From the NCBI RefSeq assembly GCF_004345645.1, contig NZ_SLWS01000009.1, forward strand, positions 372,001 through 436,000: a stretch of DNA of 64,000 nucleotides, written 5' to 3'. Below are positions 2,981-9,594 of the stretch, one piece after another (position 1 is the stretch's first letter; the number at the start of each line of letters is the position of its first letter). A model generated the notes under the pieces. That model searched no databases, was not told the DNA's origin, and saw only the letters and a program-made list of their open reading frames with translations. The stretch comes from Actinocrispum wychmicini (GTDB taxonomy: Bacteria > Actinomycetota > Actinomycetes > Mycobacteriales > Pseudonocardiaceae). The translations under genes were made by a program, and so were the position numbers.

Positions 2981-3108
2981 GCCCGCGAGTGTAGCCACCC
3001 CGCAATTGGCCCAATGGTGGCGGGAAAACAGTCGGAAACGATGTCATCGGCCGGGAAGAGAACCGAAGGGAGGATTGCCCTGCCGGGATTTCCGGCTTAG
3101 ATGGCTCT
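2981..3108. promoter_or_regulatory. divergent promoter region, methyltransferase / MFS cluster
   Basis: This region separates two divergent genes. On the minus strand TACACT (2988-2993) ends seven bases from the methyltransferase ATG. On the plus strand TTGCCC (3075-3080), a 16-base spacer and TTAGAT (3097-3102) stand six bases before the GTG of the MFS gene. Both look like leaderless promoters. No clear operator palindrome was found. Confidence 0.4.
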
Positions 3109-4299
3109 GTGTCGTCGATCCAAGCGCCCAGCCGGACCCGCCAGCTGTCCGTCCTGTTGGGCGCCAAGGCTGTTTCGGACATCGGGTACGGGTTGGACTT
3201 CGTCTGCCTGTCGATCTTCGTGTGGGAACGCACCCAGTCGGCGTTGTCGACCGGTCTGGTGAGCGTGGTGCTGTACGCCGGGGCGATCGTCGGCGGGCGG
3301 CTCGGTCACACGTACGGCAACCGGTGGGCCCGGCGCTCGGCGATGGTCACCGCCGACGTGGTGCGGATGGTTGTGCTCGTGCTGCTGGCCGTGCTCCCGG
3401 ACCGCGCCCAGGACTGGTGGTTGTACGTCGCCGTCTTCCTGGTCGGAGTCGGGCGTTCGGTGTTCGAGGCGACGATGTCGGCGGCCACCCCGGTGCTCGC
3501 GGGGGAACGCACCCAGCTGGTGAACAGCGTGCTCGCCGGTCTCAAGGGCATCGCGTTCATGGTCGGCATGGGGCTGTCGGTGATCGCGGTCCAGTGGGTC
3601 GGCTACCGTGGTGTCTTCACGTTGGACGCGGCCAGCTACGCCTTGTCGGCGCTGGTGTTGCTGTCGATCCGGGTGCGGTTCCGGGAGGACAGCGCCGCGC
3701 GCCGGGCGGTCGAGCGAAAACCGGTGGTGTGGCCGGCGGTGGTCGCCGCCGGACTGGTGCCGTTGCTGGTGGTGCGCTGCCTGGACGCGGTCGGCAGTTC
3801 GTCGCAGCACGTGGGCATCCCCATCCTCGGCGGGCAGTTGCGGCCCGAGGCGCCGACCGAGTTGGCCGGCGCGGTGTGGAGCGCGTGGGCCGCCGGCCTG
3901 CTGCTCGGCAGTTTCGTGCTCCGGCCGTTGGCCAACCGGATCATCGCGCGGACGCCCGGGGTGGTGTTCTGCGTGGCCACCATGGTGATGTCGGTCGGGT
4001 TCGTCGGGATCTTCTGGCTGGACCCGCTGTGGCTGCGCCTGCTCGCCGCGGCGGTGGCCGGCGTGGGCGACGCGTTCAGCGAGGTGGCGTTCAAACAAGC
4101 GGTGCAACGGCTGCCTGACGAAGACCGTGGCGCGGTGTTCGGGCTGTCGCAGGTCGTGGTGAACAGCGGCTTCATGGCCGGTCTCGTCGCGACCAGTCTC
4201 GTGCTCAGCCCGAGTTGGGTGCCCCAGTGGGTCCTGCTGCTGCACGGCATCCCGCTGCTCGCGGCCGCGTGGTCGGCGATCCGGCTGCGCTCGCGGTGA
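3109..4299 (+). CDS. MFS transporter, probable exporter of the peptide cluster
   Basis: A 396-aa protein with about 12 transmembrane segments, of the drug-exporter type of the major facilitator superfamily (MFS_3/enterobactin-exporter-like). A charged loop after TM2 (RLGHTYGNRWARRSAM) corresponds to the family loop 2-3 signature. The GTG start at 3109 is the first codon after a likely -10 (TTAGAT). Its TGA is shared with the next gene's GTG (GTGA at 4296-4299), so the two are translationally coupled. In this setting the likely role is export of the cluster product or self-protection. No family marker separates peptide from small-molecule export. Confidence 0.8.
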   Translation: MSSIQAPSRTRQLSVLLGAKAVSDIGYGLDFVCLSIFVWERTQSALSTGLVSVVLYAGAIVGGRLGHTYGNRWARRSAMVTADVVRMVVLVLLAVLPDRAQDWWLYVAVFLVGVGRSVFEATMSAATPVLAGERTQLVNSVLAGLKGIAFMVGMGLSVIAVQWVGYRGVFTLDAASYALSALVLLSIRVRFREDSAARRAVERKPVVWPAVVAAGLVPLLVVRCLDAVGSSSQHVGIPILGGQLRPEAPTELAGAVWSAWAAGLLLGSFVLRPLANRIIARTPGVVFCVATMVMSVGFVGIFWLDPLWLRLLAAAVAGVGDAFSEVAFKQAVQRLPDEDRGAVFGLSQVVVNSGFMAGLVATSLVLSPSWVPQWVLLLHGIPLLAAAWSAIRLRSR

Positions 4300-5411
4300 C
4301 CATCCACGCGTACCTCGACTACGCGGGCCTGGGGCGCCTGCGGGAACCGGCCGTGCGGGCCATGCGGGAGGCGTTGACCGACGTACTTCCCCACGGCAGC
4401 GCGGAGATCGGCCGCATCTTCCCGGCCCGTCGCGAGGCCCGGTTCGCTGTCGCCGACCTGCTCGGCTGCGCGCCCGAGGAGATCGCGTTCGTGCCGAACA
4501 CGTCGACCGGCATCCATCTGGTGGCCGACGGGATGGACTGGCGGCCGGGCGACGAGGTCGTCGTGTTCGAGCGTGACTTCCCCGCCAACGTCCATCCGTG
4601 GCGAGCCCTGCGCGACCAGGGCGTCCGGTTGGCGTGGGTGCCGATGCGGGCCGGCGGCTACCTGCTGGACGACGTCGAGGCCGCGATCCGGCCGGCGACC
4701 CGGCTGGTCGCCGTCAGCCACGTCAACTTCGCCACCGGTTTCCGCATCGACCTGGACGCGGTGTGCGCCCTCGCGCACCAGCAAGGCGCCCTTGTCTGTG
4801 TGGACGCGATCCAGAGTCTCGGCACCCTGCCGCTGTCCATGGCCCGCGCACCGGTCGACTTCCTCGCGGCCGGCGCACACAAGTGGCTCAACGGCCCGGT
4901 CGGCACCGGCGTGTTCTTCTGCCGCGCCAGCCGGTTGCCGCTGCTGCGGCTGCCGGCGGGCTGGTTCGGCTACGCGGGCGCCAACGACATGCTCGCCAAA
5001 GGCGCCGGCCACTTCAGCTACGACCTGCCGCTGGTCCCGACCGCCGCCCAGGCCGAGGGCGGGATGTACAACGTCCTCGGCATGGTCGGCCTGGCGGCCG
5101 CGCTTCGGGAACTCAACCAGGTCGGCGTCGAGACCGTGGCCGCCCGGATCCGCCGACTGACCCAGCGGCTGCACGACGAGCTCACCGGTCTGGGCTGTGC
5201 GATTTCCGCCGGGAACGACGACGGCTCGTGGTCCGGCATTGTCAGTTTCACCCATCCGGATCTGGACAGCGTCCGAACGGTCGAGGAACTGGTCGCGACC
5301 GGGTTCCACGTATCCCAGCCGGACGGCAAGATCAGAATCGCGCCGCACTACTGGACAAGTGACGCTGAGTTGACGGCCTTTCTACACGCGGTCAGGAAAC
5401 GCATTATTTGA
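4296..5411 (+). CDS. class-V aminotransferase-fold PLP enzyme (isopenicillin N epimerase / cysteine desulfurase-like)
   Basis: A 371-aa fold-type I PLP enzyme. The Schiff-base lysine is Lys196 in GAHKWLNGPVGTG, the pyridine-nitrogen aspartate is Asp170 with Gln173 in VDAIQS, and His142 in SHVNF stacks on the cofactor. The HKWLNGP.GTG pattern resembles CefD-like epimerases and related lyases more than IscS. No catalytic-loop cysteine of the IscS kind is evident. The GTG at 4296 overlaps the MFS stop (GTGA) and is preferred to upstream starts that would run deep into the MFS gene. It precedes the 29-residue peptide gene by 110 bases. A role in peptide epimerisation, beta-elimination or sulfur chemistry is inference. 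Confidence 0.75.
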   Translation: MTIHAYLDYAGLGRLREPAVRAMREALTDVLPHGSAEIGRIFPARREARFAVADLLGCAPEEIAFVPNTSTGIHLVADGMDWRPGDEVVVFERDFPANVHPWRALRDQGVRLAWVPMRAGGYLLDDVEAAIRPATRLVAVSHVNFATGFRIDLDAVCALAHQQGALVCVDAIQSLGTLPLSMARAPVDFLAAGAHKWLNGPVGTGVFFCRASRLPLLRLPAGWFGYAGANDMLAKGAGHFSYDLPLVPTAAQAEGGMYNVLGMVGLAAALRELNQVGVETVAARIRRLTQRLHDELTGLGCAISAGNDDGSWSGIVSFTHPDLDSVRTVEELVATGFHVSQPDGKIRIAPHYWTSDAELTAFLHAVRKRII

Positions 5412-5436
5412 CATTGTTATCATTGATATTCGACAC

Positions 5437-5465
5437 TTGTTCAAAGCGTCGCGCCGCGATATTGT
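5437..5465 (+). promoter_or_regulatory. candidate internal promoter for the small-peptide gene
   Basis: TTGTTC (5437-5442), a 17-base spacer and TATTGT (5460-5465) form a good vegetative promoter match inside the unusually A+T-rich 110-base gap before the peptide gene. Transcription from here would give an mRNA leader of about 50 bases. A small inverted repeat (TTCTC, CAG, GAGAA) lies in that leader. A separate strong promoter would raise precursor mRNA relative to the enzyme genes. Confidence 0.4.
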
Positions 5466-5521
5466 TTGTTTCTTCTCCAGGAGAAACACCCCACTGTTTC
5501 CGACGAACAACGGAGGCTTAT

Positions 5522-5611
5522 ATGACTTACGAGACCTGGGAATCGCTGGCCGACGAGGTCGAGATCAGCACGGGCGCCGCTGACTGCTGGGTCTGCCTGG
5601 TCGACCAGTGA
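5522..5611 (+). CDS. 29-aa candidate RiPP precursor peptide
   Basis: A very short gene with a strong ribosome site, GGAGG at 5512-5516, five bases before the ATG. Residues 1-17 are MTYETWESLADEVEIST, an acidic leader-like stretch. Residues 18-29 are GAADCWVCLVDQ, a tail with two cysteines spaced Cys-x-x-Cys around Trp-Val. The peptide has no signal sequence and no resemblance to a housekeeping small protein that I recognise. It lies between a PLP enzyme gene and a TPR-like protein gene in a co-directional block that also holds an exporter and an aminopeptidase, and a 13-bp hairpin follows directly. These traits fit a ribosomal peptide precursor. A longer TTG-started version (from 5408) is possible but lacks a ribosome site. 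The leader/core boundary is a guess. Confidence 0.65.
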   Translation: MTYETWESLADEVEISTGAADCWVCLVDQ

Positions 5612-5635
5612 TCGCCCGATGATCACACTGTGACC

Positions 5636-5666
5636 GGCTCCGCGCGGGCAGCCCCCGCGCGGAGCC
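5636..5666 (+). terminator. 13-bp perfect hairpin after the peptide gene (attenuator-like)
   Basis: Arms GGCTCCGCGCGGG (5636-5648) and CCCGCGCGGAGCC (5654-5666) pair perfectly around the loop CAGCC. No T-run follows, so it is a partial terminator, processing site or 3' mRNA stabiliser rather than a textbook terminator. It lies 24 bases after the peptide stop and 20 bases before the next start. That is the usual place for an attenuator that keeps precursor mRNA in excess of enzyme mRNA. Confidence 0.6.
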
Positions 5667-5686
5667 CCGACCGACCGGAGCCGACC

Positions 5687-8194
5687 ATGGATCGCTGGGA
5701 GTTCACGCACGGCCGGATCGGGGTGAACGCGCCGAGCTGGCTGACGTTCGAGGTGCACCGGCCCTATTTCGACGGCGCCGACTCGCCGCTGGCGACCGTG
5801 CACGCGCGGGCGAGCCTGCTGGCCGCCCGACGGTTCGAACAGCGTCTGCCGACCGCGCTGAGATACGGGATGAGCATGCCGGCGAGTTACCGTCGGTTAC
5901 TTACCGACGAGTCCCGACTGGCGGCTTATCGGGTGCGCGGACCGGCCGACCTACCGCGTGAACTCGCGTCCACGAACTGGCGCACACTGGCCGACGCATT
6001 CGACCGAAAGGACGATCTGGACGACGTCGACCGCGCCGGGCTGGCCGGCTGGCTCATTGCCGTGTGCCTGCCGGAATCGGTGCTCGATATCGCGCCGGCC
6101 GACCTGACCGAAGCGAAATGCGGCAATCCGGTCGTCGGCACCCTGCAATTGGCACGAGCCAATGCACTGTTCGCGGTCGAAGGGCTTTCCGAACGAACCG
6201 CGTCCGCATATCGACAATTGATTGATAACCCCGTTGCGACAGTTCCGCAGGCACAGGCGGTGGCCGCGTGGGGTTATCTGCTGTCCCGGCACGCCCAGGA
6301 CGACTCGGCGTCGTCGATGTACTTCGCGCGAGCTGGTGAGCTGCTCAAAGTGCTCGCCGGTGAGCTCACCGGATTCGATCACGCGGTGCTGCTCGCCAGG
6401 CTGCGGTTGCGTGAGGTGATGGCCGCCGAGCGGCGCCGTGACTTCGACCTGGCCTGGCGGCTGCTCGGCTCGGCGTCCGACATCGTGTCCGAGGCCAGTC
6501 CGGTGACCAGCGAGGACAAGGCGGTCAGGGCCGAGATGTGGCGGCGGCTGATCGACCGGCGGGTCGACATCGCGGTCCGCCGGCAGGACCGCGAAGCCGA
6601 GTGGCAGGGCATCGCCGAGGGGCTCGCGCTCGACCCGTACGACGTGAAGATCCGCATGCAGGCGGCGCAGGCGACCGAACGCGACGGCGACGACGAGAAG
6701 GCGCTGGCCGAGTACTTGTTGGCCGCCCGGCTCGGCCCGTACGGCACGGCGTTCGCATTGCTCGCCGCCGCCAGATCCGCGCAACGCTTGGGCCACAACG
6801 AGTTCGCGCGTGTCCTCACCGAGCGCGCGTTCCGTACCGCACCACGGTCGGCGAGAACCCGCGACGCGCTGGTGGAGATCTGCCAGTCCGCCGGCGACGA
6901 ACCGATGGCCGAGGTGGCGCGTCGCGCCGCCACGCCCGAACAACCGCACGAAGGCAACTGGCACTACCAGATGTACGCCTCGTACTTCAATCTCGGCGAG
7001 TCGCAGTCGCCGTGCCTGTACGCCAGACTGCCTTCGCTGGCCTACGAGTTCGCCGAGCTGGGCGCGCCGCCGGACACGAACTGGCAGCGGCTCATGCCAC
7101 CGGCGTTCCGCGCCAACCTGGTCCGCGAGTCCGGCCTCACCGACTTCGCCGTGACCCACCCCGCCGAGCTGCCCCAAGAGCTGCGCACCCCGGCGTGGAA
7201 CCAGCTGTGCCAGTGGGTCGCCGAGTTCTCTGAGTCCGATGTGGACCGCCAGTACCTGACCGCCATGATCCTGTTCCGGCTGGGCTTCGGGAAAGTCGTC
7301 CTCGACCTCGTCCCCGCTCGCCCGATCGCGCAGTTGCGCGACCCACGAGAACTGCGGATCCAGCACTGGCGTGACGTCGTTCGTTACGTCGGGTCGATCG
7401 GCGGCGCCGTCGTCGAACCACGAGCGTCGTTCGAGGTCGCCGACCATCCCGACTGTCCGACCCACTTGCGGTTCGTCATCTCGGTGTTCGCGGTCGTGTT
7501 CCACGCCAGGGAGACCAAATCGCTCGACGAGGCCAGCAAGTGGCGTGACAAGGCGCAAAGCTGCCTGGACGAGTTGCTCGCCAGTGCCGGGTACACGCCG
7601 TTCGAGAAGGCGATGATGGAGAGCCGGTTCTACCGAAGCGTCACGTATGTGCCGTTCCTGCGACGGGACACGCGAACCCTTGCTGCCGAGATGGACCGGG
7701 CCGAGGAGCTCGCCCGGTCGGTCGAGCCGACCACCCCGTACGAGGAGTTCCTCAAACAAGAAAACCTGCGCGCGTGTGTGGAGAGCCGGTCCAAGGAGGC
7801 GTTCGGCTTCGGCGAGAACGACCTGGGACACCGCCGGGTGCTGGAAGTCCTCCAGATCGACCCGTACGAGCCCAAGACCCACATGGAGCTGGCGGAAACC
7901 CTTCTGCTGCAGGGAAACCCGTTGGAAGCGGGGAACAGCTACCTGCGCACGGCCAGGCTCGGGCCGATCGGCACGGCACGCGGTTACGCCTTGGCGGGCG
8001 AGTGTTTCGAGCGGGCCGGGCTACCGGTGCTGGCCGAAGACTGCTTCGTGCAGGCGCTGCGAGTCGATCCGCACGCGGTGTCGGCGGCGCGTGGCTGGCG
8101 CCGAGTCGCCACCGGGATTCCTGAACTGGCCGCGGAGTACGCCGACGGCCTGGAACAGTGGGGCGCGGCCCGTCAGGCAGCGCGCACGACATGA
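5687..8194 (+). CDS. large TPR-like helical protein with two related halves, peptide cluster
   Basis: An 835-aa protein of unknown function without a signal peptide or membrane segment. It is largely helical with TPR-like units. Two segments are clearly homologous: around residue 314 (LDPYDVKIRM, later AARLGPYGTAFAL) and around residue 723 (IDPYEPKTHM, later TARLGPIGTARGY). This indicates an internal duplication, with each half ending in a TPR block. No catalytic motif of a known RiPP enzyme (YcaO, LanB/M, radical SAM, ATP-grasp) was found. The ATG at 5687, with GGAG at 5677-5680, is preferred over an in-frame GTG at 5630 that lies before the hairpin. The stop overlaps the aminopeptidase start (ATGA). 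It could be a scaffold or peptide-binding protein, or a new enzyme; this is inference. Confidence 0.7.
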   Translation: MDRWEFTHGRIGVNAPSWLTFEVHRPYFDGADSPLATVHARASLLAARRFEQRLPTALRYGMSMPASYRRLLTDESRLAAYRVRGPADLPRELASTNWRTLADAFDRKDDLDDVDRAGLAGWLIAVCLPESVLDIAPADLTEAKCGNPVVGTLQLARANALFAVEGLSERTASAYRQLIDNPVATVPQAQAVAAWGYLLSRHAQDDSASSMYFARAGELLKVLAGELTGFDHAVLLARLRLREVMAAERRRDFDLAWRLLGSASDIVSEASPVTSEDKAVRAEMWRRLIDRRVDIAVRRQDREAEWQGIAEGLALDPYDVKIRMQAAQATERDGDDEKALAEYLLAARLGPYGTAFALLAAARSAQRLGHNEFARVLTERAFRTAPRSARTRDALVEICQSAGDEPMAEVARRAATPEQPHEGNWHYQMYASYFNLGESQSPCLYARLPSLAYEFAELGAPPDTNWQRLMPPAFRANLVRESGLTDFAVTHPAELPQELRTPAWNQLCQWVAEFSESDVDRQYLTAMILFRLGFGKVVLDLVPARPIAQLRDPRELRIQHWRDVVRYVGSIGGAVVEPRASFEVADHPDCPTHLRFVISVFAVVFHARETKSLDEASKWRDKAQSCLDELLASAGYTPFEKAMMESRFYRSVTYVPFLRRDTRTLAAEMDRAEELARSVEPTTPYEEFLKQENLRACVESRSKEAFGFGENDLGHRRVLEVLQIDPYEPKTHMELAETLLLQGNPLEAGNSYLRTARLGPIGTARGYALAGECFERAGLPVLAEDCFVQALRVDPHAVSAARGWRRVATGIPELAAEYADGLEQWGAARQAARTT

Positions 8195-9594
8195 CGACCG
8201 AATGGCGACTGGTGCCGTCACCGTCCACCGATACCGACGCGGTGGTGCTGCCGGCGTTCGCGGACGCACTCCCGCCTGGACTCCCTGCCGGGCCTGGCTT
8301 CGGCGGCGGCGTGGGCGAGGTCCTGCACCTGCCCGGCGAGCCACCTCAGGTACTGCTTGGGCTTGGCCGTGAGCAGGATCTTGACAGCGAGGCTGTCCGG
8401 CGTGCCGCGGCTTGCCTGGCCAGAGAGATTCGGCGTTACCGCACGTGCACAGTCGACCTGTCGTTGCCGCCTTTGTTGCTGCGCGTCTTCGTGGAGGGCT
8501 TCGCCCTGGGCGGGTATCGGTTCACCCGTTACAAGTCCACCACTCCCCCGGTGGGGCCCGACCGGATCGACGTGGTCGCGTCCGTCGACCATCAGTCCTC
8601 AGTGGACAGTGGACGGCTGCTGGCGGACAGCGTGCTGTTGGCGCGTGACCTGGTCAACGAGCCCGGTGACGCGCTCACCCCGGCTGTCTTCGCCGACCGG
8701 GCCGGCGCGATCGGCCTGAAGTGCGAGGTCTGGGACGCCGATCGGATCGCCGGGGAACGGCTGGGCGGCCTGCTCGGCGTCAGCCGCGGCTCGCCCCGGC
8801 CACCCCGGCTGGTCCGGCTGGTGTACGAACCCGACCAGCCGGTGGCGCACATCGCGTTGGTGGGCAAGGGAGTCACGTTCGACGCGGGTGGCCTGTCGCT
8901 CAAACCGACCCCGCAGATGCTGGACATGAAGGCCGACATGGCCGGCGCCGCCGTCGTGCTCGGCGCCATGTCCGTGCTCGCCCCGCTCGGGTGCCGGGTC
9001 CGGGTGGACGGCTGGCTACCGTTGACCGAGAACATGCTCAACGCCGACCCGATCCGGATCGGTGACGTGCTGCGGATCCGGGACGGCACCACGGTCGAGA
9101 TCCGCAACGCCGACGCCGAAGGCCGCCTGATCATGGCGGACGCGCTCGTCCTGGCCGGGGAGACCGCGCCGGACGCGATCGTCGACGTGGCCACCCTCAC
9201 CGACGCGGCGGCGATCGCGTTGGGCCGCAAGTTCGCCGCCGTGATGGGCAACGACGAAGCCTGGGTGGGCCAGGTGTGCGCCGCGGCCGAGCGGGCCGGC
9301 GAACCGGTGTGGCCCTTGCCGTTGCCCGACATCTACCGGCCCCAACTCGACTCCGCGGTGGCCGACCTCGTCAACTACACAAGCGGAAACCGGCACGGCA
9401 CAGCGTTGCTCGCCGGCCTGTTCCTCCGTGAGTTCGTGCCACCCGGCATCCCATGGGCGCACATGGACATCCAGGCCACCGCGATCTGCGACGCCGACGA
9501 CGGCGAATGGGTCGCCGGCGGCACCGGGTTCGGCGTCCGCACCCTGGTCGAGCTCCTGGTCAACGGTCAAGCAGGGTCCGGCCCAGTGGCGTGA
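8191..9594 (+). CDS. M17 family leucyl aminopeptidase (PepA-like), peptide cluster
   Basis: A 467-aa cytosolic metallo-aminopeptidase. The C-terminal catalytic domain has the two metal-binding and active-site blocks of family M17: VGKGVTFDAGGLSLK (Lys226, Asp231, Lys238) with Asp249 in KADMAG, and the signature NADAEGRL near 306-313 (Asp308, Glu310, Arg312), so it should be active. The N-terminal domain is more divergent. The ATG at 8191 overlaps the TPR gene stop, so it is translationally coupled to the cluster; an upstream in-frame GTG at 8158 is rejected. The M17 enzyme BotP of bottromycin biosynthesis shows that this family can trim RiPP precursors, which supports a maturation role here. 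A general peptidase role cannot be excluded. Confidence 0.85.
   Translation: MTTEWRLVPSPSTDTDAVVLPAFADALPPGLPAGPGFGGGVGEVLHLPGEPPQVLLGLGREQDLDSEAVRRAAACLAREIRRYRTCTVDLSLPPLLLRVFVEGFALGGYRFTRYKSTTPPVGPDRIDVVASVDHQSSVDSGRLLADSVLLARDLVNEPGDALTPAVFADRAGAIGLKCEVWDADRIAGERLGGLLGVSRGSPRPPRLVRLVYEPDQPVAHIALVGKGVTFDAGGLSLKPTPQMLDMKADMAGAAVVLGAMSVLAPLGCRVRVDGWLPLTENMLNADPIRIGDVLRIRDGTTVEIRNADAEGRLIMADALVLAGETAPDAIVDVATLTDAAAIALGRKFAAVMGNDEAWVGQVCAAAERAGEPVWPLPLPDIYRPQLDSAVADLVNYTSGNRHGTALLAGLFLREFVPPGIPWAHMDIQATAICDADDGEWVAGGTGFGVRTLVELLVNGQAGSGPVA

Follow-up and report, generated by a model that had tools for sequence, protein, structure and literature searches.

A five-gene actinomycete cassette with a short acidic peptide and a duplicated TPR protein as a candidate RiPP-type pathway

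The window analysed here, a stretch of 64,000 nucleotides from Actinocrispum wychmicini, contains a 6.5 kb cassette in which five genes follow one another on the plus strand in the order MFS – PLP – 29-aa peptide – TPR – M17. The first gene (3109-4299) encodes an MFS transporter (PF07690, 4.7e-29), presumably the exporter of the product, and is followed by a class V PLP-dependent enzyme with the C-DES/SufS fold (4296-5411; PF00266, 2e-49). The gene for the putative 29-aa precursor peptide (5522-5611) is preceded by a promoter-like TTGTTC-N17-TATTGT (5437-5465), judged by eye in an alignment of upstream DNA, and is separated from the next gene by a GC-rich hairpin of 13 bp (5636-5666). An 835-aa TPR protein (5687-8194) and an M17 aminopeptidase (8191-9594; PF00883, 3.9e-105) complete the set. 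The MFS and PLP genes overlap by GTGA and the TPR and M17 genes by ATGA; this layout, including the strong ribosome site of the short ORF, the hairpin and both overlaps, lies where an earlier note on this DNA had placed it. Pfam and NCBIfam scans assigned the large proteins to MFS_1, Aminotran_5, weak TPR matches and Peptidase_M17, and returned no family match for the peptide. The same scans bear out the earlier remark that a standard RiPP enzyme is missing, finding no recognised RiPP-class enzyme among the five genes; gene sets with homologous TPR units, described below, do have some.

We found the cassette in nine genomes, namely that of the window, six of Actinokineospora (L001-L006), G403 and Longispora albida (L007). 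L001-L007 were found by a scan with the 835-aa protein and G403 was added by a family search. The five-gene order is identical in all nine cassettes, with the peptide gene and the MFS gene each kept at the same place, and the large proteins are each 50-77% identical between the window and L001-L007. The cassette is present in 7 of the 16 listed genomes of the genus that holds L001-L006 and G403 (g240), and is absent from the seven further genomes listed for the genus of the window. Clustering of neighbouring genes across the nine loci left exactly four large genes common to all, and the flanks differ, except between the close relatives L005 and L006 and for one window–L001 match some way off the cassette. 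We infer horizontal transfer as the best explanation for this unit, because it is self-contained and patchily distributed with unrelated flanks. The same distribution bears on the possibility that the locus serves ordinary amino-acid or sulfur metabolism through a C-S lyase, an aminopeptidase and a transporter, with the small gene hitch-hiking. M17 and MFS proteins are common families, and plasmids of Rhizobium and Paenarthrobacter carry PLP homologues in metabolic contexts; however, the same five-gene order in nine of nine cassettes amid unrelated flanks, with the peptide as the best-conserved element, makes such a role very improbable.

The window peptide, MTYETWESLADEVEISTGAADCWVCLVDQ, is encoded about 8 nt downstream of a GGAGG, has a net charge of -7 and can be divided into a leader, MTYETWESLADEVEISTG, and a tail, AADCWVCLVDQ. 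Across the nine genomes the conserved ORF is 29-34 aa long, with the alignment consensus MxYETWESLADEVEISTGAADCWVCLVDx; the Longispora version reads MEARYETWENLAEDVEITTAQSDVWACFLADDAA. The residues Y, E, W, E, L, E, I, T, D, W and C (YE.WE.L..EI.T...D.W.C) are invariant through to Longispora, whose peptide departs from the others more in the tail and less in the leader. Conservation of the ORF in relatives, proposed in the earlier note as a check, was therefore seen in every cassette homologue, with the leader fixed and the Longispora tail diverged. A Cys-x-x-Cys core had also been suggested, and of this the second Cys stands together with Trp as an invariant W-x-C, whereas the first Cys is replaced by Val in Longispora (VWAC), which weakens the case for a disulfide or metal-binding CxxC. 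Among the window and L001-L006 (seven sequences), differences at codon positions 1/2/3 number 44/16/134, and 110 codon changes are synonymous and 56 nonsynonymous. Since the differences fall mostly at third positions, this is a protein-coding gene under constraint, and judging from its substitution pattern the 29-aa ORF looks translated, so that the gene set encodes a putative ribosomal precursor peptide. The arrangement is far beyond chance, given the peptide in all nine cassettes, the codon-position bias and flanks that are not in common.

A TTGTTx-N17/18-TATxxT-like motif lies 5' of the peptide gene in seven of eight loci (of the TTGTTA-N17/18-TATGTT type in L001-L006); no convincing motif was read by eye at the corresponding place in Longispora. 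All eight loci that were folded have a GC hairpin between the peptide and TPR genes (z -0.6 to -3.8), and for the whole peptide–TPR gap of the window the folding z is -3.8. As the hairpin recurs in structure and not in sequence among these loci, it is likely to be a partial terminator or an mRNA stabiliser. Together, the promoter-like motif and the hairpin suggest that the peptide may be expressed separately and more strongly. A short ORF with Trp and Cys codons and a hairpin after it might also be a regulatory leader peptide that attenuates the TPR and M17 genes, but this is extremely unlikely, as conservation spans the whole peptide, beyond the regulatory codons, most of the hairpins lack a U run, and related short peptides lie 5' of YcaO, SagB or MFS genes in unrelated sets. 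We rejected attenuation on account of the whole-peptide conservation and the recurrence in other contexts.

Within the 835-aa protein, residues 25-402 are homologous to residues 427-797 (24% identity, 7e-18), and the protein is thus a tandem duplication of a unit of about 410 aa (approximately residues 1-415 and 416-835). Its AlphaFold model is an all-helical superhelix (pLDDT 82), and the best solved-structure matches include peptide-binding TPR proteins such as LGN, kinesin light chain with a tryptophan-acidic peptide, Rap and NprR. As wide matching is usual for repeat folds, these hits show a peptide-binding type of architecture and no more; Foldseek and VIA searches of the model returned generic TPR superhelices and nothing more specific, and the fold by itself therefore assigns no function. 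The presence of Rap and NprR among the matches, and the encoding of a peptide gene, an exporter and a peptidase together, would fit a peptide pheromone system in which the TPR protein, like Rap, NprR and Rgg (RRNPP), senses the trimmed peptide after its export. We regard this as highly doubtful. The model is helical repeat throughout, and no HTH family match and no DNA-binding or effector domain of the kind expected in an RRNPP receptor was found in the TPR protein. In addition, the unit includes a PLP enzyme, the conserved acidic part of the peptide is its leader and not its tail, and relatives of the TPR protein accompany YcaO, SagB and HExxH enzymes.

Profile searches identified single-unit or paired relatives of the TPR unit in other actinomycetes, and their surroundings hold short acidic ORFs preceded by good ribosome sites, which extends to more distant relatives what the earlier note had proposed to look for near TPR homologues. 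In L120 (5111-11337) and L121 (5433-11618), the peptides MVEFELDIVEDTQDFPVLLCTSY and MVDFELDIVEDTQDFPVLLCTAY, respectively, are followed by YcaO, TPR, alpha/beta hydrolase and methyltransferase genes, accompanied by an FAD oxidase-like protein, and both YcaO proteins score above the PF02624 cut-off. These two precursors, from two genomes, are 23 aa long and near-identical. L125 houses MEISWDLGQVDEEAQEFDVLGNKSY with YcaO, TPR, JmjC-like and MFS-like proteins. In L051 (8201-16977), MEAAVAIEVANEVEETAEYEVMLLQADIY is found with a 730-aa SagB-family peptide dehydrogenase (100.3 bits against a cut-off of 78.4), two TPR units, an S9 peptidase and a MATE exporter; the L051 precursor has 29 aa and a C-terminal Tyr. 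In L040 (3264-17837), MSATTTVQAKVEAPKDATFSLDVSEQELLDEFGVLSLCEYCYGA is accompanied by a pair of TPR units, by ThiF and a halogenase-like flavoprotein, and by three proteins that score above the cut-off for aKG-HExxH peptide hydroxylases. Its precursor of 44 aa ends in FGVLSLCEYCYGA, and the set also holds a flavin reductase and a nitroreductase-like protein. These five sets resemble the cassette in their homologous TPR unit or units, short acidic precursor, exporter and hydrolase or peptidase, and differ from it in their tailoring enzymes (YcaO, SagB, HExxH); we came across no description of these sets.

Further relatives add to this variety. The L043 and L123 precursors, MEDIARIAEEFAHETLSEMPHLL and MDSIEQVAVEFAHETLSEMPHVL, are partnered by an Fe(II) dioxygenase (2OG-Fe oxygenase), the L122 precursor is MESIEMVAEEFEFETLGEWQHR, and L124 and L054 carry a PQQ-type propeller (tested in L054), an M3 peptidase and a methyltransferase. 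On a linear Kitasatospora plasmid (L128, 9799-13681), a 28-aa acidic ORF, MAEQTQVNDDIYTDLEGTEAISASVHLD, lies with a TPR unit, a small protein, a weakly DoxX-like protein and an MFS protein. The window's own genome has a second TPR-unit set (L056, 7837-11253, about 338836-342252 of G000:C2), which consists of the acidic peptide MDAATEHDVVNEDAVFDLDNIGEADFNVLTSVRIY, TPR, alpha/beta hydrolase and methyltransferase genes, and then a transporter-like gene. L041- and L045-type TPR relatives adjoin other conserved genes, and as no peptide was found there they were left out of the RiPP-like count; a TPR match on a Streptomyces plasmid (L127) likewise has a gene set without a convincing peptide. Phylum-wide TPR profile matches were set aside as mostly generic TPR matches that align with the profile's C-terminal repeats.

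Each of the 13 representative precursors carries a net charge of -5 to -8. As a control, we searched the 700 nt upstream of every gene longer than 200 aa in these loci for an ORF of 20-60 aa that has coding-like codons, a ribosome site and a charge of -5 or lower. Such an ORF was present for 22 of 428 genes, and 21 of the 22 are the peptides of TPR sets, a result to be read as an estimate of specificity and not as a p-value since the thresholds were fixed after the peptides were known. The motif [DE][FYC]xV[LMC], a post hoc pattern, occurs in six of nine precursor families, compared with 0-3% per family in shuffled sequences, and the D-C-W-V-C of the window tail fits it.

Judged by published descriptions, BhaC1/AmmC1 appears to be the nearest precedent for the cassette. 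This TPR protein has no canonical flavin site, binds FMN and adds three hydroxyl groups to a C-terminal Trp (PMC9850906, PMC10979984); the BhaC1 TPR domain has been proposed to hold the highly acidic scaffold peptide (PMC9850906), and AlphaFold-Multimer puts the acidic peptide into the TPR cleft in the BhaC1/AmmC1 and AmmC2 systems (PMC9850906, PMC12424672). The pyrroloiminoquinone pearlins to which these systems belong share with the cassette a TPR protein and a very acidic short precursor, with a peptidase and an exporter in the set (PMC9850906, PMC12424672). On the other hand, the pearlin pathway needs PEARL ligases and acts on an enzymatically appended C-terminal Trp. No lantibiotic dehydratase domain, as sought for a PEARL (truncated LanB-like) ligase, was found when the five cassette genes were scanned with Pfam and NCBIfam, and a search for a BhaA-like precursor on plasmids gave no match. 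By analogy, the TPR protein could itself be the catalyst, a cryptic flavoenzyme like BhaC1/AmmC1 that hydroxylates the invariant tail Trp, with the PLP and M17 enzymes acting afterwards. Recognition of an acidic scaffold by FMN-binding BhaC1 (PMC9850906, PMC10979984) and the invariance of Trp23 among the cassette peptides speak for such a catalyst. However, BhaC1 acted on a C-terminal Trp only whereas W23 is internal, and Trp is absent from most precursors of related TPR units; on balance a catalytic TPR protein seems unlikely.

The closest fold to the PLP protein is 1elq (C-DES, a cystine C-S lyase; Z 37.0), tied with SufS proteins. C-DES and SufS/CsdB match it over the full length (Z 35-37), with the PLP lysine present, and this residue, K196, is invariant in the alignment of cassette PLP proteins. 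In contrast, the SufS loop HHCAQP reads FHVSQP in the window, where Val takes the place of the catalytic Cys. The SufS-type cysteine of the HHCAxP loop is absent from all eight aligned sequences, so the enzyme is not a classical desulfurase, and cysteine desulfurase function was rejected for this reason. The pyoverdine tailoring enzyme PvdN, which is periplasmic and acts on a peptide natural product, also has the class V PLP fold (Z 35.1; NCBIfam 3.5e-16), but the cassette protein falls far under the PvdN family cut-off (58.9 against 650 bits). A role as a C-S lyase or in PvdN-like peptide tailoring is possible. A paralogue with 37% identity lies in an unrelated neighbourhood of the same genome (L140, 9221-10435, G000:C4), with no evident peptide gene.

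The M17 protein has the metal ligands and the catalytic Lys and Arg of a leucyl aminopeptidase. K226, D231, K238, D249, D308, E310 and R312 are invariant in the alignment, and every catalytic residue of E. coli PepA is kept, with its spacing unchanged. Two further M17 genes in the window's genome, 44% and 41% identical to that of the cassette, can presumably cover housekeeping. BotP of bottromycin biosynthesis belongs to the M17 family of aminopeptidases and works in the making of a ribosomal peptide, and the analogy drawn with it in the earlier note is sound for the shared family and reaches no further. Unlike the bottromycin pathway, with its stand-alone YcaO enzymes, the cassette has no YcaO, BotH or radical SAM protein, and its precursor is laid out differently. 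The intact M17 peptidase and the MFS protein are candidates for maturation and export.

Taken together, the cassette probably encodes a small pathway of RiPP type that belongs to a new class, described here at the level of its genes. We propose an undescribed RiPP route because relatives of the TPR protein are encoded next to further very short acidic peptides and to enzymes known to modify peptides. The candidate pathway of the earlier note holds up, supported by a peptide conserved in all cassettes and by TPR relatives beside acidic ORFs, several of them with bona fide RiPP enzymes, and it extends to the gene sets of a wider TPR family. Counted against this reading are the net negative charge of the TPR protein (-15), the L041- and L045-type relatives without a peptide, the lack of a recognised RiPP-class enzyme in the cassette itself, and the post hoc choice of control thresholds and motif. 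In the proposed pathway, a dedicated promoter would drive surplus production of the peptide, and the hairpin would act as a partial terminator. The TPR superhelix would bind the acidic leader (Y-E-x-W-E-x-L-x-x-x-x-E-I) and present the tail. The W-x-C tail would be altered by the PLP enzyme, acting by itself or jointly with the TPR protein. PLP chemistry requires a free amine, and the likeliest target would therefore be a residue, such as Cys or Trp, that trimming has bared and that might undergo C-S lysis or transamination; the change in the tail would then perhaps come after trimming. The M17 enzyme would strip leader residues singly, and the MFS protein would export a short product derived from Trp and Cys.

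Whether the actinomycete TPR units form an undescribed modular family that serves many RiPP chemistries (YcaO, SagB, HExxH, 2OG oxygenase and, in the window, PLP) as the precursor-recognition partner, replacing the usual RRE domain, is in our view evenly balanced. If so, the window cassette would be the first RiPP class with a class V PLP enzyme as its sole evident tailoring enzyme. In agreement with the earlier statement that the gene set is not a described RiPP class, we found no paper describing it; apart from unrelated reviews, the literature on TPR and PLP proteins in RiPPs yielded nothing beyond the BhaC1/AmmC papers, with most subscription journals outside the coverage. RiPP mining depends on known enzymes or RRE domains, and a cassette without a standard RiPP enzyme would probably be overlooked by it. 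At 6.5 kb the cassette is small enough to be expressed whole, and class V PLP tailoring of a ribosomal peptide is thus directly testable. As a general precursor-binding partner, the TPR unit would also be a new search handle, and it has already pointed to some ten short precursors in further gene sets, a number of which include YcaO, SagB or HExxH enzymes.
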